From the NCBI GenBank assembly GCA_019454045.1, contig SKCR01051200.1:124001-188000 (forward strand): a DNA stretch of 64,000 nucleotides. The letters run 5' to 3'. Of this stretch, positions 1,560 to 64,000 are shown piece by piece; within the stretch, counting starts at the first letter, position 1; every line of letters begins with the position of its first letter. A program made the position numbers and the translations under genes. The DNA comes from Zanthoxylum bungeanum (Eukaryota > Streptophyta > Magnoliopsida > Sapindales > Rutaceae). Below the pieces are notes generated by a model, which saw only the letters and a list, made by a program, of their open reading frames with translations, was not told where the DNA came from and searched no databases.

Positions 1560-4500
1560 TGAGCTCTTCTTCACTTCATTTGGTGTGCTTTCCTTGGGAG
1601 TTTTTCCCTGTTTTTAGAGGATTGCATCTAGTTTTTGTAAATATAAATAATATTTAATTTATGTATTTTAATTTTCAGTAATAATTATAGTTCTTCTTCT
1701 TTTTCTCTTTTCTTTTATGTTTTGTAGTTAAATTTCTGCTGAGGTAAAGGTGAAGCTTTTTACTTTTATAATTTAGATTAATCTCCCTTAATTATAATAT
1801 ATAAATTATTTAAAACCTGACTTAATAAGGATACCGCCATATTGGTCGGTTGGTAATTATTTTTAAACTGGTTTTAACCTGACTTAATGAGGATACCGTC
1901 TGGTTGGTCGGTTGGTAATTAATTATTAATTTGACTTAATCAGGATACCGTCTATATGGCTGGTTGGTAAATATCACACAGATTTATATATTATAATAAG
2001 GGAGATTTCTAAATTATAAATAGTAAAGGTAGATTAATCTCACTTTAATCATAATATGAAAATTGTGATATGAATTAAAAGTTGATTCTGCCTTAATGGC
2101 TGGTTTTAATTATGTAACATAATGTGACACCGCCTATATGGCTGGTCTTTAGGTGACAGATAATTACCGCCTATATGGCTGGTTTATGGATAAATAATAA
2201 CACCACCTTCATGGCTGGTTCAACTTAATTGGATAATACTGGCAATTTCCATATTATAATAATTTGAGATTTCTAAATGTGGATCCTCTAACCCCAGCAT
2301 TTTATTTTTATTTTAGGGAAGTGATGAAACACAATATTCACACTTAATAATTGATTTTCTTTTTATGGGTAATTCTTTAGTTTGTTTATTGAGTCTTAAG
2401 TTTAATGCTTCTTGTTATCTGATCACCAATAAAATTGATATTGTAAACTTAAAATGAACTAGACATAGAGATTTTAGGTTTCAGCATTAGATTCAATAGT
2501 CCACGATCTTCCTTGAGGATAGATAACCCTTTTATAGATTTCCTTACAGGATAGACATATACCTGTCGGGCGGGGGTAGCCATAATTGGAACTTGATCTT
2601 AATGAATCCAGGTAATTTGGTTGACATAGACATATGGTTCAATTAGATTATACTGGGTATTTGCGTCTGACTATCGACAGAGGCTTTTGCATATTTTCGT
2701 GTTCCAGGTTAGCAAACTGATTTATTACACATAGATAAGAGAATCAATTCATCTTTATAATAATATTGTGTGGAGTCACGACCCTAGATCATTGAGTCTT
2801 TTCTTTTATTTTCCTTAGTATTTTCTTTTGAGTCTGTTTTTATTTTATTTTGCAAAACCACATTCAACCAACCAAAAACAATCAATTCACTTCTCCCTAT
2901 AATTAGACACTTGTAAATAAATAGTATCAATAATTAATAACAACAGTAGAAATTAAGTCCTCGTGGGATCGATATTTTTATACTACTTGAATGATAAGTA
3001 CGCTTGCGTTATACGTGTGTGTTTACGCCGGTCAGATACTTATGCAAGTGTAATAAGATGCTATGTTAGCCGTTGGATCGGGAACAGTTCGCTCTGGATA
3101 GACCCACTCGGAATCTCATTGGTAGTATGATTATGTGTCTATGGGAATCTGAATCAGGGTAGGTGTATGTGATCTTTAACCTGAGACTTACGTCGCTATT
3201 ACTTGCGACAATCAGTTTACTTTAGTATTGGTCGTCTGGAGCTTTAACAGGTTTTGTGTATGGCTGTATTGGGTTTAGTGTATTGGATGTGATGTCAAGA
3301 TGAGAGTATCACTTCAGTCATATGGAGATGATGGTCACACAGGATACAAAATTAGTACTCTTAAAGCTGCAGCTATCGGGATAGTATGACTAGGTCATGA
3401 CTTCCCGATTACAGAGATTAGTTACTCGAGATCCAATATATGCTTCGTACGGGGCATACATAGAGCCAGTCCTAGGCCTAGCATGTGACATCCGATACTG
3501 GATCGTATTACGTATTACATAATATTAATATTACTACGCCTGATACAAATGATATTCCTTGGCGAATATTTTTGGAGAATTGGGTAGACAGTGTGTTTTA
3601 CTTGAAGCCAATCATGTCTTATAAATCTGTGAGAACATGCACGTGTTCGGATAGTCCGATAATCGTAGTTACTGCCAACATATCCAGGAATCTCTTGGGT
3701 CGCTTCCCAAAGATTCACCAATGACATTTGACTCAGATACAATTAATCTGAGATTAATTATGAGAGAGAAAATTAATCTTGGATTAATTGCGGCAAGAAT
3801 TAATCTGGGATTAACTTCGTATAGAAGAGAGAACGCGATTAATTTAGAATTAATCGATAAAATAAATTTAATAGTTAAATTAGATTTTTCTATTTAATTT
3901 ATTTATTTGTGGCTAAAATAATATATCGAATATATTAATTGAAATCGGATTTCAATACGAAATTAAAATTGAATTTTAATTTGTGCGAACGAATTAATTT
4001 AGAATTAATTCGAAAGCGACTATCGTAATAATTTTACGAGGCATAATTATTTAATTAAATTGGATTTAATTATGGTGCGACGGCAAATTCGTTTAATCGG
4101 AATTAAACGAACCCGATAAAATTACCCGTGACTTTGCGTGTGTCTTTTTGTGTTTTGGGAACACAAAATATCTTTGACTTTGGTGGGACCAAGTCAAGTT
4201 GTGTGTTGAAGAAACCAACTCAAATTTTGAATTTAAAATGTGGTGGGACCACATGACTTACATCAAATGTCAAAACTTGATGGAAGTAGTTGGCTTAATT
4301 TATTAAATGCATTTTTAACACAACAACCACCAAGTCTTGAATTTTAACACACATTCTCTCTTTCTCTCTTTGCTTGGCCGAATACTTCTCTCTTTGGGAA
4401 TGAAATTTTGCTTCAAAAATTTCAACATAGCTAGCACTTGGAGGAGTCAAATTAGGTGATAGAGAAACTCACACAATAAATAAATAACAAACAACTAGCT

Positions 4501-19540: not shown

Positions 19541-30291
<10,751 letters not shown>

Positions 30292-30836
30292 TTTTTTTTC
30301 CTGTGGGAAGACTGAGAGTGAGAGACGGCTTGTGTTTTGATTTGAGAAATTCAGTTATCGGTTTTTTTTTTTTGGCCTTGTAGAGGGGCTTTTAAATGGT
30401 ATTGTAGGGTAATTCTGTAATTTAAATAACGGAGTCCGGTGCAAATGTGCAAATTGTTTTCAGTATAACTGGATTTTTTTTTATACTATTTTTTGTGTTA
30501 TTTTATTTAATTTTATGTTAATGATAGAATCTTAAAATAATCTTTGTTATTATTTTAAGAAGTTAGAACAATGATGCATGGTCAACTCAAACACCCTTTT
30601 AACCCACAAATTCATGGAATTTAATGACATCTAAAAGTTTCTAAGATATTTTAGAACAATCATGTCAAAATAATTTTATTGGCACCAATTCAAAATATTT
30701 CAATTTAAATTCTTTCATTTAAAATTTTAATATAAATTTTAAACCATGATAAATATTCAAAAGCGAAAATAATATTTAATGATTGAATTTTCACCGTTAG
30801 CTATACTACCTAATTTATTGCTTTTGTAGTGTCCAG
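30292..30836 (-). promoter_or_regulatory. 14-3-3 5' UTR and promoter region
   Basis: The transcript start should lie within about 100 bp upstream of the ATG. A TTTAAAAG TATA-like box is at 30391-30398 on the minus strand, and a CT/GA-rich leader (GAGAGTGAGAGACGG complement, 30311-30330) precedes the ATG. Only about 545 bp separate the start codon from the nested MITEs at 30837. No TF site is assigned with confidence. Confidence 0.45.
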
Positions 30837-32802: not shown

Positions 32803-33220
32803 GTGAACTCGATCCTTGACCCTTAACTCTAATTTTCCAAGTCACTCAAAGGTGATCAAGTGATTCTAGAATAGTAGTCATAGCTTCAAGCTTTCATCTA
32901 GGGTTTCAAACTGTAATTTTATGTTTCATGTCCAACATGAACATATTTGACCCAATATGAAGCATATTGTGTTTATGCTTCCAAACCATCCATGCACAAA
33001 TTTATTACCCTCATTTCAACTTCAAGTTATATTGTTATGTATCAAATATAAAAACATAACATATTAGAGAATATCAAACTTACCTAGTAAGCTTGAACCA
33101 AAGATCTAATTTTCTTCTTTTTTTGAAAAAATGTAGAGAAGTTCCAAAGCTTCTCAAAACATTGTCTTAGGTTAATTTTTCTTATGTTTTGCCTTAATGA
33201 TTGTTTGCTTAAAAGCTTCC

Positions 33221-35030
33221 TGACCGGCACGTAATCACAAGCGTATAACGCAAGCGCACGTATCGTTCAAGTAATATAAAAAGTATCGATCCCACGAAGA
33301 CTTAAAACTTTTTGTTATCAATCTATGAAGTTAAATGTTTACAAGTATCTAATGGATTGATTGTTTGATTAGGTGGTGACTTTAAAATTAAAACAAGTAA
33401 ATAAATTGCTTGAAAGTATATTGAAGAAAATTCAAATTTATAAAACTATCCAGGGTTGTGAATCCTTCCAATATCTTTTTTAAAAGATGAAGTGGTTATT
33501 TTACATTTGTGTGATATATTGGTTTATTAACCTGGAACACGAAATTATGTAAAAGCCTCTTCCGATGGTCAAATACAAATACTCAGTATAACCCAATTAA
33601 TCATATTCTTATGTTAATCAAGTTATCTGAATTCATTAAGATTAGTTCCAATTATGGTTACCAGTTCAATTTTATTAATGGCCAGTTAATAAAAAGCATT
33701 AAGACTAAGGCTCAATAAATAAACCTTTATATTACCCAAACCGTAATTTAACCCCTTATAAACCGGTGATATTGGACTCCATCACAACCCCGGATAACTG
33801 GCTTAGTTACGACACATATTTACAGGTAGTAAAAACTTAAATAAAAGAAAAGACATAAAGTAAATGCTGGAAATTAAATTACTGGAAAGTAAATTGCTGA
33901 AAAGTAAATTGCTGAAAAGTAAATTGCTGAAAAGTAAATAAAGTAAAAGTACAATAAAAGAAAATATTGAGGTAAAATGATCCACTTTTATTACTACTAT
34001 TTTAGATATCTCCCTTAATATAATATATTAACTTTACGTGATAATTACCAACCGGCCATATAGGCGGTATCCTGATTAAGTCAAATTAATAATTAATTAC
34101 CAACCGACCAATATGGCGGTATCCTCGTTAAGTCAGATTTTAAATAGTTATTATATTATAATTAGGGGAGATTAATCTAAATAGCAATAATAAAAGCTTT
34201 ATCTTTTACCCCAGCAAATGGGAGTTACCTCCTCATTGCTTGAAAAGTAAAAACTGAAAAAGTAAATAAAGGAAAGTACTGTGCGTAAAAGTAAATTGCG
34301 GAAAGTAAAAACCGAAAAGTAAAGAAAAGAAAATGCGAAAGTGGTAATTAATTACTAAAAGCTGTAAATAAACAAACAAGATACAATCTTCTTAGTTATT
34401 CTTAAGGAATTTCAAAAAAGAAAGTATGAATTTACAAATGAAATGGCATGGTATTTATAGGCAAAATTTTACCTCCATCAAATCATCCACCAAATCCATT
34501 ATTAATTGCTCCACCAAATTCATTATTAATTTCTATCATGTTTGGTGGGAGCTTGACTATTTTTATTTTTTTTTTATTTTCTTGCTTTGAAAATGACTTT
34601 AATAATTAAACATAACACACTTCCGGATGTTTTATCAATTTCGGTCATGAAATCTTCAGAATTTGAAATTATTTTGTTCTTCAAAGTTATATATCTTTGA
34701 GTCTTCTTTAATCTGGAACTTGAATCAGCTCAATTCGATATCGGAATAAAAAGTTATGCCCAAACTACGACAGTTGCGTAAAATTAGAATTTCCGAAGCT
34801 GCATTTCGTTAGAACGCCCTTTCAAGTTTCCAATCTCTAAAATTAATATGTCAAGTCCAATTTTTACCCTTATTTGACCCATATTTCATCCTAAATGATT
34901 TCATTGAGTCCCAATATTATTTTATCTGCAAAATAAACTAAAACAAATCAAAATGTTCATCAAACCCGAGAAACTAAACAAAATATTAAGTAAAAGGGGC
35001 GGTAAATATTGATATATTTTCCGCTCATCA
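33221..35030 (-). repeat. 3' LTR of the Athila-type element
   Basis: 1810 bp. Relative to the 5' LTR it lacks about 135 bp (site near 33661), one copy of the ACCAACCGACC...GGTATCC repeat (near 34090), and some AAAAGTAAATTGCTG units (33885-33950). A CTATAAATA box is at 34452-34460 on the minus strand. Confidence 0.93.
34452..34460 (-). promoter_or_regulatory. TATA box in the 3' LTR
   Basis: CTATAAATA on the minus strand, in the shared GCCTATAAAT context of this LTR family. Confidence 0.5.
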
Positions 35031-35710
35031 CACCCCCAAACCTAACATTTTGCTAGTCCTCGAGCAAAACAACAAAATAAAATGTAAGAAACAATTAAAA
35101 TTAAACTAAGCCACTTTCGTAGGGATCACGGTTGCATTTAGCGTATGCAACAAGCATTTAAACCCCTAGGTGTCCCTAGTGGACGAGTTGTAGTCTCGTG
35201 AGGGCTTACAACAACGATACCTACAAACGTTTGATAAAAGTAAAAAGATAGTAAAACTAATGCACACAAAAACAAACAAAAAAAAAAACAAGAGAAAAGA
35301 GAATAAAGAAGTTATTGACTAAACAAGTGAAACTTCTTATCCAAGTTAATAGTTGTTTTATTTCTTTCTAAATTACCGAATAAGTGAATTCTCCAATTAT
35401 TTTTTTACCATTCTTCATATACACAGCCAACAAAATATTAATTAACTCATTTTTTTCCACATAGTCACAAGTGCAGTAGAGAAGAAAGTAATATTTTTGT
35501 CCTAAAGTTTTATCAGAATTCACACCTTTTTAGCAATGAAAAATTTTTTTCTTCTGATTTTCTGATTTTTTTTTCCTTTTTTTGATTTTTGATTTTTTTT
35601 TATTTATATACAATATCTTTCATCTATATAATGAGCTTTAGGCCGTTGCTCCCAAACCAGTTGGCTTTAGCACACCAAGTGTTAAGACACCCCTACAGAC
35701 TTAATTACTC

Positions 35711-35769
<59 letters not shown>

Positions 35770-36301
35770 GCAACATCTTCGATCCATGTAATGAGCTTTG
35801 GGTCAGTGACTCCCAACCAGTTGGTTTTAGACACTAGGTGTTAAAACACCCTTACAGACTTAATAACTCTCGATCTAGGACGTTTTTTTTCTTTTTTTTT
35901 TTATATCCCATCGTTTTTTTAGGTGCTTCCTCCAATTAAACTAGAGCACTGAATATTACAACTTTTTAATTACATCTCATGTCCGTATGTTACCATGCAT
36001 ATGATAATATCTGTCAACTGAGCATATGAAGATCCATTTTAGTTAGTTTTATGGAGAATTCACAAATTAAATAATTTAAAAGGAAATAAACAAAATTAAC
36101 TTGTTCCGAAATAGGTTGAGATACGTCTCAGGAATTGAAATTCCTTACAGATATCTCACACAATTTTCACCTGATTAATCAAATAAAAACACAAAAATAC
36201 AAAATATTTTTTGGTTTTTGTAAAAATTTCAATTTTTTTGGCTTTTTCGAAAAAAAATTGACTAAAAATAAAACAATAAAAACAAGATACAATTTAACTA
36301 T
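35031..36301 (-). other. Non-coding 3' region of the Athila-type element
   Basis: No coding frame. The polypurine tract next to the 3' LTR is TTTGGGGGTG on the minus strand (35031-35040). An (AT)n run (about 35717-35765) lies between two imperfect direct repeats of about 85 bp (35630-35715 and 35789-35870, sharing ATGAGCTTtrGG, CCAGTTGG and ACAGACTTAAT). Long T runs near 35555-35600 and 35884-35902. Confidence 0.7.
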
Positions 36302-36410
36302 TCTCCTCCCCCAAACCTAAATGAGACATTGTCCTCAATGTCTTAAACAGTAGAAGAAGAGTTTAGAAAACCGTACCTGGTTCACTGAAATTCTACATCT
36401 AAATGAAAAG

Positions 36411-37065
36411 TTAAAGGTTAAGATCCAGATTTATCTGACGCCTCTTACCACGATCATTATCGGACCAGTTTATCTTGGAAAGAATGGGGTCAATTTGAGG
36501 TTCAAAGGCTAAGATTTGGTCAATTAAATATGGGGCAGTTCTGGCAGTAAATATGAGTTCTTTTACAGGCTTTGACACGAACCTATTTCTCCTCGGGCAT
36601 CATCAAGAAACACACAAAGAAAATCATAAAATCCTCAACATTGTACAGTCCAAGCAGTTTCCGGTGTATGTTCAAGTTTGCCCAAGATAGTACTGTAAAA
36701 ATTTCCTCCATCGTGCCCAAGCCTCCTGGCAAAGCAATAAAAGCATCAGCACGGTTAATAATCTCTACCAGTCGTTCAGACATACCTGGCACGATTAGTT
36801 CCTCGCCATTTGATGATCCAATAAGATTCGCCTCCGCCAAGGGTTTTGGGATGATTCCCAAGACTTGACTGCCTTCATCATGTACCGCCTTTGAAACAAT
36901 CCTCATTAGTCCAAGATTGCCACCGCCATATACTAAGTGCATATTCTTTGCAGCAATGACTCGACCCAATTCCTGTGACGTTGTTACGTATTCTAGTTTA
37001 ACACCAACACTGGTATCGCAAAACACATAGATGTTTTCAACTCGTCTTCTTGAAGTAGCTTCCAT
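36411..37065 (-). pseudogene. LOG: LOG-family cytokinin riboside phosphoribohydrolase copy, captured
   Basis: LOG enzymes release active cytokinin bases from their riboside 5'-monophosphates in the cytosol. The minus-strand frame from ATG 37065 reads ENIYVFCDTSVGVKLEY, LVYGGGNLGLMRIVSKAVH, VLGIIPKPL, MSERLVEI, DAFIALPGGLGTMEEIF and LNIHRKLLGLYNVEDF. The PGGxGTxxE signature is intact and the Arg of the MxxRK motif is present, but the following Lys is Leu. The first frame stops at 36583; two small frame changes near 36575-36610 reach the rest of the family's C terminus (FVSKPVKELIF, LSKINWSDND, stop at 36411), so nearly the full length was captured. No intron interrupts it, suggesting a spliced mRNA source. 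It resembles the LOG subgroup often annotated as lysine decarboxylase-like. Same strand as the retroelement, where an env-like frame would lie. Confidence 0.87.
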
Positions 37066-37299
37066 TTTTATCTGGATGCCTTCAAAGGTGCAATGATGAG
37101 TTGAATTTATAGAACCTGAAAAGGGTGAGTAATAATAGCACAAGTATCTTCCAAATGATGATTAGTAGCAAAATAGTAAATCGTGAAAGGTTAAAAATTA
37201 GCATGGATCCTGTAGGAGAAAATAACAAAACAAATCACAATTATTAGGAAAAGACAAAGAGATATAATATTTACAATAATGTAACGGCTTGAATGACGT

Positions 37300-37788
37300 C
37301 TATGCGTCAGGGACAAGCTTCCCATCCAATTTTCTTATAAATTGGCAAACAATGTCTTTTTGAGTCAGATTCCCAAGACTTAAATGTTGTCTTTCTTTTC
37401 GGAATTGTGCATATAACATGCGAATTTCATGATACACATATCCACTAGGATGTGTCTCAAGAGTCTTAGATATGTCATCCAAAGACTCCTTACTCAAGTC
37501 ATCCCTAATGAAATTAATCTTATCTTCGCAGTTATCAGACATTATTCCTAAAGAACGACAACGAGTATTACATGTCATGCGAGCACATTTATAGCAAACA
37601 CCCATTTTTTTAGCTCTTCTCTTTTTAGCATAGGTGCTTCTGCCTAAACCAGGCAGATGTGAAATAAAAGAGTCTGAGGACTCACCTGCCAATCGGACCT
37701 GTGCTTCAATAATCCAACGAATGTCAGCAGAAATACCTTTGATCATCAGTAGCCTCATTCGTTCCAAGCGAGCTTTGTAAACTTTCAT
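37300..37788 (-). CDS. Unrecognised 162-residue frame between pol and LOG copy
   Basis: I do not recognise the family. The frame opens MKVYKARLERMRLLMIKG and has a helical basic start, then SFISHLPGLGRSTYAKKRRA, a Cys-rich core VCYKCARMTCNTRC (C-x2-C-x4-C-x3-C, possible metal site near residues 71-83), and a charged helical end with HPSGYVYHEIRMLYAQFRKE. Composition is that of a real soluble protein, not of random translation. A second frame (37918-37724) overlaps its start and reads SSRKSSQAISFSPSKLSDES, so a frameshift may have cut an originally longer product beginning at the acceptor-like site at 37864. Captured host sequence or an element-encoded third protein are both possible. Confidence 0.5.
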   Translation of the reverse strand: MKVYKARLERMRLLMIKGISADIRWIIEAQVRLAGESSDSFISHLPGLGRSTYAKKRRAKKMGVCYKCARMTCNTRCRSLGIMSDNCEDKINFIRDDLSKESLDDISKTLETHPSGYVYHEIRMLYAQFRKERQHLSLGNLTQKDIVCQFIRKLDGKLVPDA

Positions 37789-37863
37789 CAGAGAGTTTTG
37801 AGGGAGAGAAGGAAATTGCTTGTGAAGATTTACGAGAACTTATTCCATCTTGAAATGACTTAA

Positions 37864-37895
37864 CCTGCAAAATTAAATACACAAAAATAAAACAC
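37864..37895 (-). promoter_or_regulatory. Splice acceptor-like site upstream of the captured frames
   Basis: On the minus strand a T-rich tract (TGTGTTTTATTTTTGTGTAT) runs into TTTAATTTTGCAG/GTTAAG, the cut falling before 37864. It resembles a plant 3' splice site. Athila elements are thought to express their env-like frame from a spliced RNA, and this site has the right position for that. Confidence 0.45.
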
Positions 37896-37987
37896 ACCAA
37901 ATCTGAATATATATACACAAATTGCTTGGGTTGCCTCCCAGCTAGCGCTAAGTTTAATGTCGTTAGCTAGACATGATTTCCCGAATG

Positions 37988-38566
37988 TTAGGCTGGATCT
38001 GAAAGCGTGACACTTTCTTTTTGTCGCTTAAATGATTCTCCCCAGTAGTGCTTGACACGCTTGTTTTTAACCTTGAATGTTTTATTGGAGTCGGGATCAT
38101 GTAACTCAACGGATCTATCTGGTAAAACCTTGGTGATTAAGAATGGTCCTGACCACCGAGATTTTGGCTTCCATGGGGAGAGTTTCAACCTTGATTTGTT
38201 TAAAAGTACCCTCTGCCCTGGTTCCAGCTGTATGCGCACTAACTTCTCATCATGTTTCTTCCTGGCCTTTTCTTTGTACAATTTGGCATTCTCAAAAGGC
38301 TGAATGTGAAATTCATCCAATTCGTTGAGCTGATGGAACTGTTTCTCTTTTGTTGCTTGTAGTGCAATAATAGGATTCTTCAGTACGCAGTACGTTTTAT
38401 CTTCGGGCTTCACAGACAGTTTGTCAATAGAACTTTGCATTGCATTGGAGTTCTGGATGGTACTATGTATCACATCAAGTCTGAAACATTCCTCATTCTT
38501 GTCGTCATCCGGGAAATTCATGCCTTTGAAAACATTGAATGTTACTTCTTGGTCATGTAACCTCAT
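37988..38566 (-). pseudogene. Pol remnant: RT entrance fused to integrase C terminus
   Basis: One open frame of 192 codons. Residues 1-35 (MRLHDQEVTFNVFKGMNFP, then DKNEECFRLDVI) belong to the stretch between protease and RT of Athila elements. The later part (QLNELDEFHIQPFENAKLYK, then RVLLNKSRLKLSPWKPKSRW, SGPFLITKVLPDRSVELHD, VKHYWG) is the integrase C-terminal domain. RT, RNase H and the integrase zinc finger and catalytic core are deleted, yet the join keeps one frame. The frame then stops at 37988 beside the GGGAGGCAAC motif. A functional fusion is unlikely to catalyse anything. Confidence 0.85.
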
Positions 38567-38581
38567 GGTTAGTTCTCTTTT

Positions 38582-40690
38582 TTATACATCAATAATGGTT
38601 CGACCTGTAGCCAAAAATGGTCTCTCGATGATGATCGACACGTCTTCATCTTCCTCCATATCAAGGATAATAAAATCTACTGGGAAAATGAATTTGTCAA
38701 CCTTGACCATCACATCTTCAACTACACCTCTCGGAAATACGAGCGTTCTATCAGCAAGTTGTAGAGAGACTGAGGTAGGCATTGTTTCTCCAATCTGTAG
38801 TTTCCTGTAAATAGAAAAAGGCATTAAGTTAACATTTGCACCTAAATCACACAAAGCCTTACCGAAGTCATGTTCTCATATGGTGCAAGGAACAGTGAAA
38901 CTGCCAGGATCTTTCAACTTTGGGGGAAGCTTCCTCTAAATGATGGCGATGCATTCTTCTGATAATGCTACTGTCTCGTAATCTCCCAATCTCCGTTTTT
39001 CGTGAAAGAATGTCTTTTATGAATTTGACATAGCTGGACATTTGTTTCAACGTTTCCGCAAATGGAATGTTGATATGCAGCTGTTTGAAGATCTCCAGGA
39101 ATCGAGAAAATTGATTGTCTAGTTTATTCTTCTGGAGACGTTGTGGAAAAGGTGGAGGTAGTATGATCATTTCTTGATCTTTTTCCTTTGCTTCTTTTTT
39201 CTCCATCTGTGGAACTGCTTCACTGCTTTCTTTTGGAACTTCCTCAATAGTTGCCTTGATTCTAACATCTTTATTAATTTCAGTACCGCTTTTTAAAATA
39301 ATGGCATGACATTGCTCCTTCCCCATGTTCCTTGGATTTGGTTCTGTGTTGCTAGAAAGATTTCCTGGCGGTCTGTAACTCTAAGCATTGGCCAGTTGTC
39401 CAATTTGATTCTCCAGTGCTTTAATAGAAGCAGATTGACTTTGAATTAATGCTGTTTGGGATTGAAACAAAGCATCATACCTAGCTGCTTGAGAGTCGTG
39501 TTTTGCTTTTATATTTTTCAAGTGGGTCAGCACTTCTGTTATTCCTGTTTCTTTGTCATACTCTTGGCCTTTGTTCTGCTGTTGGAATCCTGGTGGTGGG
39601 TTATTCATTTGCCCTGAATTATTGCTCCATGCGAAATTGGGATGATTCCTCCACTCTGGGTTGTAGGTGTTGGAATATGGATTGTTCCCCTGTCTGTTGA
39701 TATTGTTGACATAATTCATCGTCTCCTTATGTTGGTTTGGCTCTGGTGCTCCTCCATATGGTGAACTTGTGGATCCAATATTAACTTGCATGCTGAGAGT
39801 TTCCATGAATTTACATATCTGATCCAGCTTGGCATTCACTGCTGTGTTGGCTCCAACTTCATAAATTCCAGCAATTCGTTGGATCAAGCTCCTTTCTGTT
39901 GGCCACAATGAATTATTGTTAGCCATTTTTTCAATTAGGTCACAGGCTTGATCTTCTCATTTTGCCATCAAAGCTCCTCGAGCAGCAGCATCAATTGTGG
40001 TTCTCATTATTCCAGAAAGTTCATTGTAGAAGGTTTGGACTTGTAGCCATTTTGCAATCTCATGGTGATGACATTTTCGGAGTAAATCCTTGAGCCTTTC
40101 CCAAGCTTCGCAAAGGGATTCTGAATCTTGTTGCACAAAGGATGTGATGTCATTCCTCAACTTTGCAGTTCTGGCTGGTGGAAAGTACTTTGCAATGAAT
40201 TTGGTGGCTAGAGTGTTCCAAGTTGTGATGGAACCTGCTGATAGTGAATGTAGCCAAGCTTTGGCTCTGTCTTTTAAGGAATATGGAAAAACTCGCAGTC
40301 TCATGGCTTCTTCAGCTGCTCGGTTGTAGTTGAAAGTGCCGCAAACTTCCAGGAAATTGCTGATATGGGCATTAGGATCTTCAGTTGCATTCCCCTCAAA
40401 CTGAACTGACTGTTGTATCATCTGAATGCATATTTTGATGTAACATGCATTTGCTGGTTAGGGAGGAAGTACAATACAGGAAATGAAGCCGTCAACCACC
40501 GGAATGGTTCTGTCTCGAAAGGGAATTGGTTGTGCAACCTTCAAAGGTTCAGGTTCCATGTTGATGATTGCTTCTTAGCCTTCTCGTTTTTCCCTTCTCA
40601 ACTGTCTGATGGTTCTTTCAATTTCTGGGTCAAGCGGTCGGACTTCAAAGCTTCTGGTTCGTCTCATGTAGTGTTTGAGAACCTGAAACA
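38582..40690 (-). pseudogene. Athila-type gag and protease
   Basis: Minus-strand polyprotein in several pieces. It starts near 40690 (RRTRSFEVRPLDPEIERTIR), meets a TAG near 40590 and a stop near 40462, then runs open through the gag core TEDPNAHISNFLEVCGTFNY, LKDRAKAWLHSL, ITTWNTLATKFIAKYFPPAR and ESLCEAWERLKDLLRK (40421-39957), stops at 39957, resumes (39926-39381), stops, continues with LPPPFPQRLQKNKLDNQFSR and the KDILSRK region (39326-38990), shifts frame, and ends with the aspartic protease [18 protein letters not shown] and [20 protein letters not shown] (38854-38582). The protease has CDLGA, the family's normal variant. Missing zinc knuckle is typical of Athila. Confidence 0.87.
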
Positions 40691-40776
40691 CAAGAAAACA
40701 AAATTAATAAGTAAAAAGAAAATTAGATACAAGTAAAGGTATCTAACCCCAAAACTAATAGTGAAAGATAAATAAG

Positions 40777-40794
40777 TCCCCGGCAACGGCGCCA
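40777..40794 (-). other. Athila-type primer-binding site
   Basis: TGGCGCCGTTGCCGGGGA on the minus strand, six bases from the 5' LTR end. It matches the primer site pattern known for Athila/TAT elements. Confidence 0.88.
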
Positions 40795-40800
40795 AAAACT

Positions 40801-42875
40801 TGACCGGCGCGTAATCACACGCGTATAACGCAAGCGCACATATCGTTCAAGTAATATAAAAAGTATCGATCCCACGAAGACTTAAAACCTTTTGTTATAA
40901 ATTTATGAAGTTAAATGTTTAAAAGTATCTAATGGATTGATTGTTTGATTGGGTGATGACTTTAAAATTAAAACAAGTAAATAAATTGCTTGAAAGTAGA
41001 TTGAAGAAAATTCAAATTTATAAAACTATCCAGGGTTGTGAATCCTTCCAATATATTTTTTAAAAGATGAAGTGGTTATTTTACGTTTGTGTAATATATT
41101 GGTTTATTAACCTGGAACACGAAATTATGTAAAAGCCTATTCCGATGGTCAAATACAAATACCCAGTATAACCCAATTAATCATATTCTTATGTTAATCA
41201 AGTTATCTGAATTCATTAAGATTAAGTTCCAATTATGGTTACCCCGCCCGACAGGTATATTCATATCCTGTAAGGAAATCTATTAAAGGGTTATCTATCC
41301 TCAATGAAGATCGTGGGCTATTGAGTCTAAGGTCTTTAACCTAAAATCTCTTTTCCAAGTTCATTTTAAGTTTACCAGTTCAATTTTATTAATGGCCAGT
41401 TAATAAAAAACATTAAGACTAAGGCCCAATAAATAAACCTTTATATTACTCAAACTGTAATTTAACCCCTTATAAACCGGTGATATTGGACTTCATCACA
41501 ACCCCAGATAACTGGCTTAGTTACGACACATATTTACGGGTAGTAGAAACTTAAATAAAAGAAAAGACATAAAGTAAATGTTGGAAAGTAAATTGCTAAA
41601 AAGTAAATTGCTGAAAAGTAAATTTCTGAAAAGTAAATTGCTGAAAAGTAAATTGCTGAAAAGTAAATTGCTGAAAAGTAAATAAAGTAAAAGTACAATA
41701 AAAGAAAATGTTGAGGTAAAATGATCCACTTTTATTACTACTATTTTAGATATCTCCCTTAATATAATATATTAACTTTGCGTGATAATTACCAACCAAT
41801 CATATAGGCGGTATCCTGATTAAGTCAAATTAATAATTAATTACCAACCGACCAATATAGCGGTATCCATGCTTAGTCAGGTTAAAACCAATTTATAATT
41901 AATTACCAACCGACCAATATGGCGGTATCCTCGTTAAGTCAGATTTTAAATAGTTATTATATTATAATTATGGGAGATTAATCTAAATAGAAATAATAAA
42001 AGCTTTACCTTTTACCCCAGCAAGTGGGAGTTACCTCCTCATTGCTTGAAAAGTAAAAACTGAAAAAGTAAATAAAGGAAAGTATTGTGCGTAAAAGTAA
42101 ATTGCGGAAAGTAAAAACTGAAAAGTAAAGAAAAGAAAGTGCGAAAGTGGAAATTAATTACTAAAAGCTGTAAATAAACAAACAAGATACAATCTTCTTA
42201 GTTATTCTTAAGGAATTTCAAAGAAGAAAATATGAATTTACAAATGAAATGGCTTGGTATTTATAGGCAAAATTTTGCCTCCATCAAATCATCCACCAAA
42301 TCCATTATTAATTGCTTCACTAATTGCTATACTAATTGCTCCACCAAATCCATTATTAATTTTTATCATGTTTGGTGGGAGCTTGACTATTTTTATTATT
42401 TATTTATTTATTTATTTATTTTTTTGTTTCGAAAATGACTTTAATAATTAAACATAACACACTTTCGGATGTTTCATCAATTTCGGTCATAAAATCTTCA
42501 GAATTTAAAATTATTTTGTTCTTAAAAGATATATATATATTTGAGTCTTCTTTAATATGGAACTTGAATTAGCTCAATCCGATATCGGAATAAAAAGTTA
42601 TTCCCAAAATACGACAGTTGCGTCAAAACTAGAATTTCCGAAACTGCACTTCGTTAGAACGCCCTTTCAAGTTTCCAATCTCCAAAATTAATATGTTAAG
42701 TCCAATTTTTACCCTTATTTGACCCACATTTCGTCCTAAATGATTTCATTGAGTCCCAATATTATTTTATCTGCAAAATAAACTAAAACACATCAAAATG
42801 TTTATCAAACCCGAGAAACTAAACAAAATATTAAGTAAAATGGGCTGTAAATATTGATATATTTTCCGCTCATCA
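40801..42875 (-). repeat. 5' LTR of the Athila-type element
   Basis: 2075 bp, TGATGAGCGG at 42875 to GCCGGTCA at 40801. It has about six AAAAGTAAATTGCTG units (41580-41690), three ACCAACCGACC/GGTATCC units (41790-41945), and the 135-bp stretch absent from the 3' LTR (41246-41380). TATA box CTATAAATA at 42258-42266. Confidence 0.94.
42258..42266 (-). promoter_or_regulatory. TATA box of the Athila-type 5' LTR
   Basis: CTATAAATA on the minus strand, about 620 bp from the LTR start. It is the promoter expected to drive the captured LOG copy and the unknown frame. Confidence 0.55.
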
Positions 42876-44349
42876 CTTCCTCAAGCTTGCCTTTTATAGT
42901 GAAGCTTATACAAGTTTTAATTAATAAAAGTTATAATCAACTTTTATGTGGGCTTAATCCATTTTGTGCAAATATGTATAATTATATGTGACTAATCATT
43001 TTTATCTACCACTTTGATTTAATTAAATCAAAATAAATAAACATATTATTACATATTTGTAATTACCAAAATATCCTTCAAATGTAGAAATATTTATGAA
43101 ATTATAATAAAGCTCTTCCGTGATTTTGGATTAATCCAATTAATCCAATTGGATCAAAGTAAATAATTAATATTATCCAATAAAACTTAATTATTTTAAT
43201 TGATAATTATATTGTCAATATTAATTATTATCAAACATTATCGGCTATCCAAGTGCTTAACGAGTACATTTCATATTGTGAGACTCTCTAAGTTCAGACA
43301 CGTTCGTTATATAAGTCTAGCTTATATGTACGCAATTCGGCCTCCTCTGAATTCGAGAAGACAGACGACCTTTCTGAACTATATAAGTCGAGGTCATCAC
43401 ATATGTTTAACAATCCCTCCGTCGTAGGCTATCCGAATTGTTCTTAGAAACATAAATTACATCGTCAAGTTTCCGAGACGCACATCTCATATTGTCGACA
43501 TATCAATGATTCCTTATAACTAATCATAATACTATTTTTGATACATACGATCCACCATATGTGATCGATTTTTGCCAAAATCTTAAGAATCGTGACTTAC
43601 TCACATGGATACTTAAACTCCTTATGGTACACATACGAGCCGAAAGATCATATCTTGATACGCAATTGATTAACAAGTGCATCGGTGCACACCCAACGAA
43701 CATTTAGCAATCAAACCATGAAATGTATCTGTCATATATGGCATCAAAGTATAGATGATCACACTCAAAATCATTGTTATCATACCATAAAATGATCACA
43801 TATACTACTCGATTCGAGGAGATTCATATTGACGGTGGTGTGTACTTTTAAGTATCTGGAATCATTTGTGGGTAATTCAGTATTCGCTCCAACGAATACC
43901 CACATGTCTATACGAGCTTCATTTGCTCATGGTACATCGGGTTAAACCATTGGAACTCTAATTCCAATATATGACATGTGCTAGTCTTCTAAGTTATAGG
44001 AATTCGACCGTATTCCAAAAACCGACGACTAGAAATATTTACTTTAAGAATAATTTTATAATAGTAATATTATCCCAATATGGACCAGCCAATGTCCATT
44101 ATTACTACATGACTATTCTAAGGTCGATGTCATTATCAACATATTTATATATCAATCTAATATGCATAATGACATTACCATTAACAAAGTTGAAATGAAA
44201 ATATAGTTATTTTATTATCAAATAATAAAATATAATGTACAATACATTATTCCGATTGGCGCTCCAAGCACCAACTCCAACATTTACGGCACTGATAGGA
44301 GTAAGGATAATAAACCTAGAGAGAGTAACCGTCATAAGAGATAGTCTAG

Positions 44350-44944: not shown

Positions 44945-45419
44945 GTCAAGTTGTAATGTAGCGTATTCATCTAAAACTATTTTTATCCCAACTCAACTAA
45001 CTCATAAATGTGACTAAGGTAAGAAACATGTTGACTGTAGTCATTTGATTCCCTATGTTGTTCCCCATCCTATGTGTTAGGGTTGGTGCTCGGAATGCCA
45101 ATTTGGATCGTATTTATGTCCGATTCATGAATACGAACAATTCTTTTTTCAATAATATTACTTACTTAATGGTAGTACCTCTTGTTTTTTATATACGTAT
45201 TCGATCTAATTACGATTAGATTGAAACTAAATATGATCAACATTTTTTATATATGTATATATTAGACAAAGACCCTAGAATTTACAACGTAGTGCGCAGT
45301 TACAACGTAGTTTGTAATTGACATTAGGAAGCGTCACTATAAGTTGTATATTCTCAAATAAAATTCCTGGTCAAGATTTACTGACACGGGTCGGTTAGTA
45401 AAATCTGTTGAGACCAGTA

Positions 45420-47972
45420 TATAAGGGTTCTTAGTCCATTCGGGTCGGTCGCAGCGGAAATGCGGGTCGGGGCAGAAATCGTATTTCAAAACTTTTTCAA
45501 AATACCGAGTAAATTATTCAATATCTAATATGAATAAACTATTCGGATTTCTCCTAAACCCAAAAACATTACTCACATACATGATCAGATCAGATGAAGT
45601 AATGATCGGACCACAAAAGGCCTTGGTCCGACCATATGAAGTCATGGTCCGACCACATGAGGTCACGATCCGACCACATGAGGTCATGCCGACCACATGG
45701 GGTCATGATCCGACCACACTAGGTCCGACCAGACCAGAGACGACCTTATGAGATCCGACCAGACCAGGTCTGACCAGACTAGGGCCGACCAGACGAGGTC
45801 CGACCAGACGAGGTCTGACTAGACGAGGTCCGACCAGATGAGGTCCGACCAGACCATGGCCAACCAGACGAGGGCCGACCAGACGAGGTCCGACCAGATG
45901 AGGTCCGACCAGATGAGGTCCGACCAGATGAGTATTTTACATGCATCTTATACACATCCAAATACACAATATATATGAAAAGCCCCAAATTTGGAGTGGG
46001 TTATGAACCCTAATTTTTCAATTTCATCAAATTATCCAATTTCACCAAATTTACAAAATCCAACACTTAAATCCATTCAATACTTCACCAATCAAGCCTC
46101 ACCACTTTGAAACAACTCTAAAACAATTCTAGGTTACCAAGGAGTGGCTTACTAACTCTAGAATATCAACTTTGATCTTCAAAGAATCAAAAGTAAGCTT
46201 TGAAACCATTTCAAGCTTACTTACATGCACAAATATTTCATTCAAGTTCACAACAATTAAAACACAAACTATAAGTAAAGAGACAACATCAAAGCAACGC
46301 AAGATGAAGCTAAACATGTTAGAAACATTTTTCATGTTGGAAGATTTGAAAGAAAACTTACAAAACCTTAAGATTTCCAAGCTTTTCCTTCTTTTCTTCA
46401 AACTTTTCTCTCAACCACTTTTGTGTTTCTTTTGTATCTAATGAACTTGTTAAACCCTAAAATTGAAACAAAATAATTTACATCTCCACCAAATAAGCCT
46501 TGGCCGAATATAGTGAGAAGAAATAAATAAATATCTAGATATTTTTCTTTTGTTTCAATTAAAGCTTTAACAACTTGTATAACTTTATCATTAAACCATT
46601 TAATGAATTTCTTAAAATCAACAAAGGCAACCAAAAGCATTTCCATAATTATCACAACTTTAAGATATTTATATTTCAATTAATTTAATCATTTAACAAT
46701 TAATTAATTATTTAAATACAAATAAATTAAATATATGTATTATATTTACATTAAGTATCAAATACATATATATTTATGATATTAGTCAAATATCTCAATT
46801 TGACAATTAATTAATCTGTATTTCATAAAATCTAACATTAAATACAAATACACAAAAATTAGGAAATGACTATTAGGTTCCTACACATGTATTTTTCTTT
46901 TAACCTTTAAACGAATTACAAATAATCAGTATTATTTATAAATGTTGCCCTAGTGCTCTACAAGTATATTTCATTAGTGAGACTCTCTAGATTTAGGCAT
47001 ATCCGTCATAAAATATAATTTCATGTCCATAATTTACCCACCCGTAAATTATGACGACCACAGATAAACTAGTTGAATCATACAGGTCGAGATCATTGCA
47101 TACGTATAATCCCTCCGTCACAAGTATTCGGATAATCCCAGAGATATAGATGTAAACGTCAAATCTCTATAGGTATTATCTCGTCGACGTTTCTATTAGC
47201 AATCTCTGAATAACATTCGGAACTTACTTCCGAAGTTTACTGTGGCCACATATTTAACAGACTGCTAATCACATATGGACTACCTATGCTCTGTACACAG
47301 AACTGACGGATCCTATCTCGATACACACAGGATATCCTGAGGATCGGTCCACACCCAACGAACATTAGGAGGTCTGATCTAAATAGATCGGTGACGTGAC
47401 TGCCATCTAAGTGTGGAGGTATGTCGCATACATCCACAGTGGTATCTCAAGTCGAAGGACCATTATGCTACTCAACCCGAGAAGATTCTTATTGACCTTG
47501 GTGTACCATCCATTAAGAATCTTCGGTGAGTCGTTCAGTGTTTATCCACTATAAACACCTACACATCTATACGAGTCTCCATAGACTCATGGTTCATTGG
47601 GATAAACCATCGGACCAAGTCTCGATATACGACATGTATTGGTCTAAAAAGATTTGACTAACCGACCCGTGTTAGTAAATCTTGACCAGGAACTATATTT
47701 GATAATATAAATTTAGCAGTGACATTTCCAATGTCAATTACAAACTACCTTTGTAACTGTGTACTGCAATATATATTATCGAGCCTTTGTCTAATATATA
47801 CATATCACTAAACCACATTTAGTTTCAATCTAATCGTAATCAGATCGAATACGTATATAAAAACAAGAGGTGCAACCATAAATAAGTAATATTATGGAAA
47901 AATGAATTGATCGTATTCATGAATTAGACATAAACACGGTCTGGATTGGCACTCTGAGCACCAACCCCAACA
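45420..47972 (-). repeat. 3' LTR of the LARD-like element
   Basis: 2553 bp, containing a GACCAGACGAGGTCC minisatellite (45660-45932). A 93-codon frame at 46398-46679 is repeated with one visible residue change in the other LTR (53077-53358), a measure of low LTR divergence, not a gene. Confidence 0.92.
45660..45932. repeat. 15-bp minisatellite GACCAGACGAGGTCC in the 3' LTR
   Basis: About 15-18 imperfect units of (c)cgaccaga(c/t)gaggt. The left part has a related CCGACCACATGAGGTCA unit. The homologous array in the other LTR (52375-52612) has fewer units. Confidence 0.85.
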
Positions 47973-50900: not shown

Positions 50901-52156
50901 CCTATAGTTGTAGTATTGTGAAAATCGATATTTTCTATACACAACTATACGCATCTCCTTTCTTTAGCTTTACTATTTGCATTCAACTATTCACAATAAT
51001 TGCAAATAACTGATTAGCAAATTGTGTCAGACACATTGCCTCTAAAGGTCATTAAAGTTAAGAAACGTCATTACTAGATAAACAAATACCTAATGGGGCT
51101 TTCTTAATGCCAGTCAAGAATCTCGAGACATGAACTAATTTAAGTCAATTCTTACTGCATAAGAAACTATTCTCTCAAAAGTATTATATCCTAAAAGGGA
51201 TAGTTATCTAGATTATCTGTCGTGACTTAGAAACTAAGTCACTAACCATCTCGATTTTTCAAGAAAATCGGAACAACAGTTCCCGATGGTTTAGACCAAT
51301 CTAATAATATCCTAGTCTAATAGTATCTAGAACCTATTCTAGAATAACTGCAACCAAAAGTCAAGTCAGATAACAAATCAAAATATGTGTGCAGTAAATA
51401 AATGTTCAATTCTATATAAATAATAGAATAAGGAAACAAACAAGCGGAAATTTCCATAATAATACACACTGCCAAAGTTATGGAATATTTTAAACTTAGC
51501 AGTACCTCCCACTATTTTACGTAATACCGTAATCCCCAACGGAAAAATGATAATTCAATAATTAAATCGAATTCCATAATGGTAAGTGGACCCCATGAAT
51601 ATATTTCGACTCACAGCAGAGGCACTGTCTCACCTACGTATATTCACAGGTAGATAACTCATTTGTCAATCACTCAATTTGTGACTCCTAGGTTTCGGTC
51701 CTGGTCGTTTCTCGTTGTCGCTGCTAAGGCAGGCCCACAAGGAGACGTACCAAGGTTAAACTCATCAATGATAAACTCAAGTTACTTGCATAACCCTGAC
51801 AGCTAGGGCACGTTCAGGATTTCATTTTCGCTTGAATTTATCTAGTATCTAATATACATCCGACATAAATAAATCTATATCGGCTACACCCTCACAGCAG
51901 AGGCACGGTCTCAGATGTAGTCACGGAAAAATATTTATAAACTGTATTGACAAGACGGACCAAGAAACAAGTATTCCAAATACCAGTTACTTTAAAACCT
52001 TATTAAGCGGGGATATTCCATAAAGTGTCATACACTTTAAATTTAATCAAATTAAATGAAAGCATGCATGTATCAAGTTAAGAAAAGAATAAACATTAGA
52101 TTTTAAAGGGCTAATCATATCAGAGGCCTAGGATCAGACTCGCTCTGATACCATTT
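47973..52156 (-). other. Internal non-coding region of the LARD-like element
   Basis: 4.2 kb without recognisable protein frames on either strand; the longest open frame (50034-50342, minus) has no family features. CTCCCACT-type motifs (AGTGGGAG on the transcribed strand) recur at about 47978, 48374, 48892, 50131 and 51507. A relatively GC-rich island lies at 51690-51900. Confidence 0.7.
52142..52153 (-). other. Primer-binding site of the LARD-like element
   Basis: TGGTATCAGAGC on the minus strand, three bases from the 5' LTR end at 52157. Confidence 0.9.
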
Positions 52157-54658
52157 TGTAAGGGTTCTTAGTTCATTCGGGTCGGTCGCAGCGAAAATGC
52201 GGGTCGGGGCAGAAATCGTATTTCAAAACTTTTTCAAAATACCGAGTAAATTATTCAATATCTAATATGAATAAATAATTCGGATTTCTCCTAAACCCAA
52301 AAACATTACTCACATACATGATCAGATCAGATGAAGTAATGATCCGACCACAAAAGGCCCTTGGTCTGACCACATGAAGTCATGGTCCGACCACATGAGG
52401 TCACGATCCGACCACATGAGGTCATGTCGACCATATGGGGTCATGATCCGACCACACTAGGTCCGATCAGACCAGAGATGAACTTATGAGATTCGACCAG
52501 ACCAGGTCCGACCAGACGAGGTCCGACCAGACTAGGGCCGACCAGACCAGGTCCGACCAGATGAGGTCCGACCAGACGAGGTCCGACCAGACGAGGTCCG
52601 ACCAGACGAGTATTTTACATGCATCATATACACATTCAAATACACAACATATATGAAAAGCCTCAAATTTGGAGTGGGTTATGAACCCTAATTTTTCAAT
52701 TTCATCAAATTGTCCAATTTCACCAAATTTACAAAATCCAACACTTTAATCAATTCAATACTTCACCAATCAAGCCTCACCTCTTTGAAACAACTCTAGA
52801 ACAATTCTAGGTTACCAAGGAGTGGCTTACTAACTCTAGAATATCAACTTTGATCTTCAAAGAATCAAAAGTAAAGCTTTGAAACCATTTCAAGCTTACT
52901 TACATGCACACATATTTCATTCAAGTTCACAACAATTAAAACACAAACTATAAGTAAAGAGACAACATCAAAGCAACGCAAGATGAAGCTAAGCATGTTA
53001 GAAACATTTTTCATGTTGGAAGATTTGAAAGAAAACTTTCAAAACCTTAAGATTTCCAAGCTTTTCCTTCTTTTCTTCAAACTTTTCTCTCAACCACTTT
53101 TGTGTTTCTTTTGTATCTAATGAACTTGTTAAACCCTAAAATTGAAACAAAATAATTTACATCTCCTCCAAATAAGCCTTGGCCGAATATGGTGAGAAGA
53201 AATAAATAAATATCTAGATATTTTTCTTTTGTTTCAATTAAAGCTTTAACAACTTGTATAACTTTATCATTAAACCATTTAATGAATTTCTTAAAGTCAA
53301 CAAAGGCAACCAAAATCATTTCCATAATTATCACAACTTTAAGATATTTATATTTCAATTAATTTAATCATTTAACAATTAAATAATTAATTAATTGTTT
53401 AAATACAAATATATTAAATATATGTATTATATTTACATTAAATATCAAATACATATATATTTATGATATTAGTCAAATATCTCAATTTGACAATTAATTA
53501 TATAGATTTCATAAAATCTAACATTAAATGCAAATATACAAAAATTAGGAAATGACTATTAGGTCCCTACACATGTATTTTTCGTTTAACCTTTAAACGA
53601 ATTACAAATAATCAGTATTATTTATAAATGTTGCCCTAGTGCTCTACGAGTATATTTCATTAGTGAGACTCTCTAGATTTAGGCATATCCATCACAAAAT
53701 CTAATTTCGTGTCCATAATTTACCCACCCGTAAATTATGACGACCACAGATAAACTAGTTGAATCATACAGGTCGAGATCATTGCATACGTATAATCTCT
53801 CCGTCACAGGTATCTGGATAATCCCAGAGATATAGATGTAAACGTCAAATCTCTATAGGTATTATCTCGTCGACGTTTCTATTAGCAATCTCTAAATAAC
53901 ATTCGGAACTTACTTCCGAAGTTTACTGTGGCCACATATTTAACAGACTGCTAATCACATATGGACTACCTATGCTCTGTACACAGAACTGACGGATCCT
54001 ATCTTGATACACACAGGATATCCTGAGGATCGGTCCACACGCAACGAACAGGCAGAGGTCTGATCTAAATAGATCGGTGACGTGACTGCCATCTAAGTGT
54101 GGAGGATGTCTCATACATCCACAGTGGTATCTCAAATGGAATGACCACTATGCTACTCAACCCGAGAAGATTCTTATTGACGTTGGTGTATCATCCATTA
54201 AGAATCTTCGGTGAGTCGTTCAATGTTTATCCACTATAAACACATACATGTCTATACGAGTCTCCCTAGACTCATGGTTCATTGGGATAAACCATCGGAC
54301 CAAGTCTCGATATACGACATGTACTGGTCTCAACAGATTTGACTAACCGACCCGTGTTAGTAAATCTTGACCAGGAACTATATTTGATAATATACATTTA
54401 GCAGTGACACTTCCCAATGTCAATTACAAACTAACTTTGTAACTGTGTACTGTAATATATATTATCGGGCCTTTGTCTAATACATACATATCACTAAACC
54501 ACATTTAGTTTCAATCTAATTGTAATTAGATCGAATACGTATATAAAAACAAGATGTGCAACCATAAATAAGTAATATTATGGAAAAAGAAATTGATCGT
54601 ATTCATGAATCAGACATAAATACGGTCGGGATTGGTACTATGAGCACCAACCCCAACA
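52157..54658 (-). repeat. 5' LTR of the LARD-like element
   Basis: 2502 bp, TGTTGGGGTTGG at 54658 to CCTTACA at 52157 on the minus strand; the near-identical partner of 45420-47972. Confidence 0.92.
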
Positions 54659-63721: not shown

Positions 63722-64000
63722 TGATGAGCGGAAAATATATCAATATTTACCGTCCCTTTTACTTAATTTTTATTTAGTTTCTCGGGTTTGATGAACGTTT
63801 TGATGTGTTTTAGTTTATTGTACAGATAAAATAATATTGGGACACAATGAAATCATTTAGGACGAAATGTGGGTCAAATAGGGCAAAAATTGGACTTGAC
63901 ATATTAATTTTAGAGATTGGAAACTTGATAGGGCGTTTTAACGAAGTACAGTTTTGGAAATTCCAGTTTTGCGCATCTGTCTTATTTGGGGCATAACTTT
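63722..64000 (+). mobile_element. LTR of the Athila-type family, cut by the window end
   Basis: It begins TGATGAGCGGAAAATATATC and follows the reverse complement of the LTRs ending at 35030 and 42875. The base before is consistent with insertion into the copia leader; the presumed TSD is GGCAT (63717-63721). Confidence 0.9.

Follow-up and report, generated by a model that had tools for sequence, protein, structure and literature searches.

The element and its genes

The window analyzed here, a stretch of 64,000 nucleotides of the Zanthoxylum bungeanum genome, contains an LTR element on its minus strand (33221–42875), delimited by a pair of LTRs and a TSD. The 3' LTR (1810 bp, 33221–35030) and the 5' LTR (2075 bp, 40801–42875), both on the minus strand, have TG..CA ends and are bordered by the 5-bp TSD CTTCC (33216–33220 and 42876–42880), so that these two features of Athila elements are both present. 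A putative PBS of the tRNA-Asp type, presumably the complement of tRNA-Asp, lies 6 bp inside the 5' LTR (40777–40794, minus strand), and a minus-strand polypurine tract, GGTTTGGGGGTG, adjoins the 3' LTR (35031–35042). It is this sequence, and not the purine-rich block at 36302–36316 mentioned in the earlier note, that represents the tract next to the LTR. The K2P divergence of the LTR pair is 0.042 over 1810 aligned sites, which corresponds to an insertion age of about 5 million years at 3.92e-9 per site per year, a rate used for Z. bungeanum (PMC8417289), and to a smaller one with other plant rates.

The gag region comprises three consecutive stop-bounded frames (38868–40457, minus strand), with a match to the Pfam domain Retrotrans_gag at 39957–40457 (E 9.6e-22). 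Most of pol is gone from the window copy, which is without RT, RNase H and integrase core; what is left is a 197-aa frame on the minus strand (37988–38581) without a Pfam match, which, judged against a relative that retains pol (L064, continued in L025), joins the terminal part of the protease region to the C-terminus of integrase. Two cargo genes lie further downstream, also on the minus strand. The first is an ORF of 182 codons (37300–37848) with matches to the Pfam models Carla_C4 and Viral_NABP, referred to here as CRP-like or NABP, which has a stop near its start in the window copy. The second is an intronless LOG-family gene (36411–37065), recognized by Lysine_decarbox, whose product ends in the tail INLDLNL.

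The earlier note had described an intron-free, same-strand LOG frame inside a TSD-bounded Athila-type LTR element, with the motifs YGGGNLGLM and PGGLGTMEE intact, and had reported small frame changes near 36590. Both observations hold: the LOG frame is broken between about 36.59 and 36.64 kb, and its open part matches Lysine_decarbox with an E value of 8.2e-25. LOG is indeed a cargo of the whole family, but one of two, and the second cargo ORF at 37300–37848 had been missed in the note.

Elsewhere in the window, direct repeats at 45409–47972 and 52146–54658, about 6.7 kb apart and approximately 89–99% identical in the listed blocks, are probably the LTRs of another element. Segments at 2380–3034 and 63722–64000 resemble the LTRs of the LOG-bearing family (with values of 79% and 91%, respectively, to L060, a related copy described below), so the window holds further copies or remnants. 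Inspected by eye, a minus-strand frame at 29770–30354 resembles exon 1 of a 14-3-3 protein.

Lineage, forms and abundance of the family

The earlier note would have been refuted by junctions found in no other element, but comparison with two others shows that the junctions are shared. Positions 33857–40917 of the window align with L060 as a single 7.2-kb block (86%), and the aligned block with L063 is 4.5 kb long (85%). Because the junctions of the whole element recur in other copies, an independent processed pseudogene within the element can be ruled out. No TSD or TIR belonging to LOG itself was apparent on inspection of its surroundings. Both L060 and L063 have the same arrangement as the pol-deleted window copy, which therefore looks like a replicating non-autonomous form. 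L060 and a neighboring element on the same contig (L061, contig C40497) both carry NABP and LOG and apparently have one LTR in common, as expected of recombination between copies.

The pol-bearing relative L064/L025 encodes gag, RNase H and integrase core domains, all identified by Pfam, as well as RT motifs identified by eye. The scanned pieces of L064, which cover part of pol, contain one RNase H region; an additional RNase H domain is described as the mark of the Tat elements (PMC6317226). The PBS and the location of the extra ORFs on the 3' side point to an Athila-type Ty3/gypsy element, with which the one RNase H region in the scanned pieces would agree; the label is drawn from these three features.

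The family is very abundant, and the places in the 3.96-Gb genome that match it number in the tens of thousands, far more than chance would give. With no more than two mismatches allowed, a first LOG 30-mer matched 9,456 places and a second, more sensitive one 25,922; a NABP 30-mer matched 19,615 places, and none of the reversed patterns matched anywhere. A matching place does not prove a full copy. All 40 scored matches to the LOG DNA query (of 9,060 candidates) span positions 1–655 at no less than 95% identity, and the Lysine_decarbox profile met a stop in only three of 150 scored rows (47,331 candidates), a list that is selected by score. An intact LOG ORF was found in two of the 35 measurable copies and a broken one in the other 33; these belong to 40 copies picked from 100 listed exact 30-mer matches, which are on low-numbered contigs and are not a random draw.

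NABP is present over at least 85% of its length in 25 of 38 loci (the window being one of them), partial in seven and absent in six, and the 13 loci in which it is absent or partial were counted against a role for the module. For 20 further loci with an upstream flank, the corresponding numbers are 10, seven and three, with contig ends cutting three of the loci. LOG is kept, with no NABP detected, in L010, L011, L015, L029, L031 and L036. Four of these (L011, L015, L029 and L036) have upstream, instead, a related frame that ends near KSNAHGI(V/F).. and possibly represent a second deletion form.

A CRP-like gene upstream of LOG

The ORF located directly upstream of LOG on the same strand encodes a basic, cysteine-rich protein of 182 aa, in which a basic stretch is followed by the motif C-X2-C-X4-C-X3-C. 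Its open part in the window (37300–37839) scores above the cut-offs of both Carla_C4 (E 1.5e-6, 28.5 bits against 20.9) and Viral_NABP (E 4.3e-5, 24 bits against 23), with the match limited to a short central region, residues 59–94 of the window frame. In an alignment of 39 family members, Carla_C4 was matched by 36 and Viral_NABP by 33 at E<=0.01, and the L063 member is above the Viral_NABP cut-off only, being below that of Carla_C4. A protein search returned 383 proteins at E <= 1e-3, the best 120 of which include proteins from Xanthoceras, Populus, Acer, Rhamnella and Orobanche. The predicted fold is weak (mean pLDDT 66.5, pTM 0.31) and gave no match at E<=0.001 in a search of viral folds; a PDB search gave no match at E<=1. 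Scans of viral contigs with NABP (as a single sequence and as an alignment), with integrase and with a Populus LOG found no relatives.

Both Pfam models describe nucleic-acid-binding proteins of carlaviruses and allexiviruses, and the CRPs of carlaviruses match them too. The CRP of potato virus H is described as having a basic stretch beside a central cysteine motif (PMC3689765), an arrangement also seen in NABP. However, its finger is C-X2-C-X9-C-X4-C, its mass is 10.9 kDa as compared with the 182 aa of NABP (PMC3689765), and carlavirus CRPs are encoded in a viral genome rather than in a retrotransposon. Because of the different finger spacing, we refer to the NABP product as CRP-like and not as a member of the CRPs. 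Suppression of silencing is reported for the CRPs of potato viruses H and M, and the p12 protein of chrysanthemum virus B is described as a transcription factor that causes hyperplasia (PMC3689765); mandariviruses are also said to have CRPs (PMC12172455).

The differences in finger spacing and in size, the short and central Pfam match, the L063 member that is under the Carla_C4 cut-off and the viral-contig scans that gave no relative would all suit a likeness without kinship, with the ORF encoding a basic zinc-finger protein from outside the viral CRP family. This is a serious alternative, though we would not give it even odds: the curated cut-offs of two virus-specific Pfam models are exceeded in the window frame, and most family members match both models at E<=0.01.

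Sequence features of the retro-LOG protein

The LOG protein of the family (retro-LOG) is 217 aa long, and in the L063 copy Lysine_decarbox is covered over its full profile (1–131 of 131, 127.4 bits). From a protein search that gave 7,590 matches at E <= 1e-3 we considered the best 120, 100 of which are 205–260 aa in length. Among the 100 listed retro-type matches, which are not independent of each other, 83 carry LxLxL among their ten C-terminal residues, mostly preceded by a basic patch, as opposed to none of 119 plant LOG matches. LxLxL is also kept in 53 of 72 copies from the same genome, while shuffled tails reach 1.7%. LxLxL tails are known as EAR motifs, which recruit TOPLESS co-repressors. 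These counts would suit a protein whose LOG fold serves largely as a scaffold, with a basic, LxLxL-containing tail that recruits TOPLESS-type co-repressors and so shifts transcription of the host or of the element. Yet binding of TOPLESS by this tail is putative, the listed matches are not independent, and the active-site block, which a scaffold would not need, is conserved; as the main function of the protein, such tethering appears improbable.

The HxRK motif is found in five of the 100 listed retro-type matches and in 118 of the 119 plant LOG matches. In contrast, PGGxGTxEE is retained in retro-LOGs, with E120 and E121 invariant and R98 present in at least 90% of 33 aligned rows; the conserved R98 and E121 of the LOG family have a role in catalysis. 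In four retro-type LOGs (P0008, P0009, P0013 and P0014) the R that is conserved in the MxER block is replaced by Q, perhaps a natural loss of catalysis. LOG enzymes release active cytokinin, but the absence of the plant HxRK makes cytokinin activity of retro-LOG doubtful, so we class it as a LOG-family homologue and not as a proven LOG enzyme. The combination of a retained fold and PGGxGTxEE block with a replaced plant HERK motif could also indicate a phosphoribohydrolase that acts on AMP/GMP-like nucleotides and no longer prefers cytokinin nucleotides. Such an activity would favor reverse transcription or blunt nucleotide-based defense; we consider it unlikely, as the EAR-like tail would be left unexplained. 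Judging by its sequence, retro-LOG may work as an enzyme, may act as a tether in the nucleus, or may combine the two.

Origin of the retro-LOG

The codons for the plant motif MHERKAEM have exactly one exact match in the genome, the host LOG gene L059, whose protein is 88% identical to LOG8 of Citrus sinensis, which points to a host in the Sapindales. This gene has seven exons and GT..AG introns, in agreement with the earlier expectation of a host LOG gene with introns. Over the full-length domain, retro-LOG is 51% identical to Arabidopsis LOG3 (2a33), 43% to LOG8 (1ydh) and 42% to L059, and it differs from plant LOGs in having no introns, falling into a separate clade, having lost HxRK and gained the LxLxL tail, and being borne by an element. 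Full-length relatives of retro-LOG in other plants are 50–65% identical to it. Many of the retro-type relatives are single frames of about 217 codons on short contigs, known from the frames alone, and such frames imply the lack of introns.

In a tree of 75 rows, 34 retro-type rows and three Xanthoceras proteins are on one side of a branch with support of 100/99, a 100/97 branch sets off 21 plant LOGs, mostly sampled from the LOG8 type, and 17 bacterial LOGs are set apart from the retro-type and plant LOGs (99/99). A bacterial origin, which could have been indicated by PGGLGT, a motif that bacterial LOGs have as well, and by bacterial matches of up to 49% identity, is rejected because the tree groups retro-LOG with the plant LOGs (99/99). 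Capture from L059 is ruled out by the 42% protein identity and the separate clades, both of which make the capture look old. The earlier note had proposed capture from spliced RNA of a host LOG gene. Passage through spliced RNA is plausible, given a host LOG gene with seven exons, but L059 is not the source, and the sequence comparisons agree best with a single ancient capture of a plant LOG by way of processed RNA.

Selection on the two cargo genes

At variable sites, the nearest natural copies with and without each variant were compared, and synonymous and nonsynonymous changes were scored by frequency class. For LOG (71 of 78 copies, five short and two identical ones having been dropped), variants found in at least five copies comprise 112 synonymous and 89 nonsynonymous changes (three unclassified), as against 75 and 254 for singletons (21 unclassified; p 3e-14). 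For NABP (33 of 78 copies; the other 45 were left out because they were short, lacked the gene or the flank, or were identical to another copy), the ratios are 41:40 (16 unclassified) and 39:149 (32 unclassified), with p 2e-6. The C-terminus of integrase, used as the positive control in 24 of 38 loci, gave 33:32 (seven unclassified) against 21:60 in singletons (19 unclassified; p 0.003). When LOG was read in the wrong frames in 55 copies, the common and singleton ratios were 38:127 and 60:215 in one frame (p 0.81) and 26:136 and 64:202 in the other, where the shift is in the opposite direction (p 0.05).

Singletons fit the expectation of uniform mutation, with 22.8% synonymous changes in LOG (23.5% expected) and 20.7% in NABP (21.1% expected), and the variants found in 2–4 copies look neutral in both genes. 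Over the whole set, pairwise dN/dS is 0.29 for LOG (0.72 and 1.00 in the shifted frames) and 0.39 for NABP. Among L001–L008, the nearest kin of the window copy, it is 0.77 for LOG, so constraint may be relaxed there. The excess of synonymous changes in common variants, combined with neutral-looking singletons, indicates that the propagating lineage was constrained whereas individual insertions decay freely. During replication of the family, both LOG and NABP were subject to purifying selection.

These data also bear on whether the two genes are passengers, spread only by the spread of the element and with no function for it. The broken LOG in 33 of 35 measurable copies from the 30-mer list, the dN/dS of 0.77 in the nearest kin of the window copy and the neutral-looking variants in 2–4 copies could be taken that way. 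Nevertheless, the synonymous excess in common variants is confined to the true frame and equals that of integrase in strength, and full-length relatives exist in other plants at 50–65% identity; we see little room for mere passengers.

Possible roles of the two proteins

The reading we favor, to which we assign a probability of roughly 0.4, is that the two accessory proteins serve the element, LOG through cytokinin or its nuclear tail and the CRP-like protein through silencing or transcription. LOG would stem from an ancient capture of the processed mRNA of a plant LOG, and its product would either raise active cytokinin locally or, by means of its basic, EAR-like tail, have a nuclear action; LOG activity would favor a dividing, meristem-like cell state. 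By analogy with carlavirus CRPs, the CRP-like protein would counter silencing or reprogram transcription. Together, the two could make host cells permissive for the element, which would be carried into germ-line lineages. Expression would start from the 5' LTR, possibly with splicing to acceptor-like sites before each ORF. Pyrimidine-CAG stretches that precede both ORFs are candidate splice acceptors; conservation of these sites ahead of NABP and LOG is no higher than that of their surroundings.

The suggestion of the earlier note that the LOG copies are a decoy or a source of small RNA against host LOG genes would suit the very high copy number, but it is very improbable, since base-pairing would be poor at 42% protein identity between retro-LOG and L059 and selection acted on the LOG protein.

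A broader form of the favored reading, that the two proteins serve the element, is more doubtful, and we put it forward tentatively. It is that a lineage of angiosperm Athila-type elements has an old host-manipulation module, made up of a viral-type silencing suppressor or transcription factor and a retro-evolved LOG with an EAR-like tail, which drives host cells into an unsilenced, dividing, cytokinin-high state. If true, the transposable element would be equipped to act on both hormone and silencing. Whether the extra ORFs of plant retrotransposons benefit the element is an open question, and here two of them show a signature of purifying selection similar to that seen in integrase. Both cargo genes resemble proteins with known action on plant cells, which makes the question testable by ordinary assays.

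Comparison with known elements

Athila-like elements with LOGL4-like extra ORFs were reportedly described by Steinbauerova et al. in 2011. Our literature search, which covered few subscription papers, found no title or opening of an abstract on a CRP-like ORF in a plant retrotransposon or on an EAR-tailed LOG. The function of extra ORFs in plant retrotransposons has been called rather speculative in a survey (PMC6317226) that counted extra ORFs only from a length of 250 codons upward and whose main text mentions neither LOG nor cytokinin. Since this cut-off exceeds the 182 and 217 codons of the genes described here, such modules could have been missed.

In the Athila and Calypso elements, as in the family described here, a coding region is found downstream of pol; these downstream genes of Athila and Calypso are termed envelope-like, and Diaspora is described as having none (PMC1142308). 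The tRNA-Asp PBS of Calypso and Diaspora is located 5 bp inside the LTR (PMC1142308), as compared to 6 bp in the window copy.

Gypsy consensus sequences with a YgdH/LOG domain are reported from Citrus sinensis, C. clementina and Populus trichocarpa (PMC9289625), and they share with the family described here a LOG-family extra domain in a Ty3/gypsy element. The passages on these elements make no mention of a second, viral-type ORF, a selection test, the tail or a comparable copy number (PMC9289625). LOG-like domains in Gypsy elements are thus already in print; the two-gene module, its selection and the EAR-like tail did not turn up in the literature search. Another likeness is provided by the Gypsy elements of Phalaenopsis that carry an AlkB-type m6A demethylase (PMC9289625), which also represents an added enzyme gene, possibly directed against host control. 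The enzyme is a different one, and its demethylase activity is reported as shown in vitro (PMC9289625), whereas retro-LOG is known from sequence alone.
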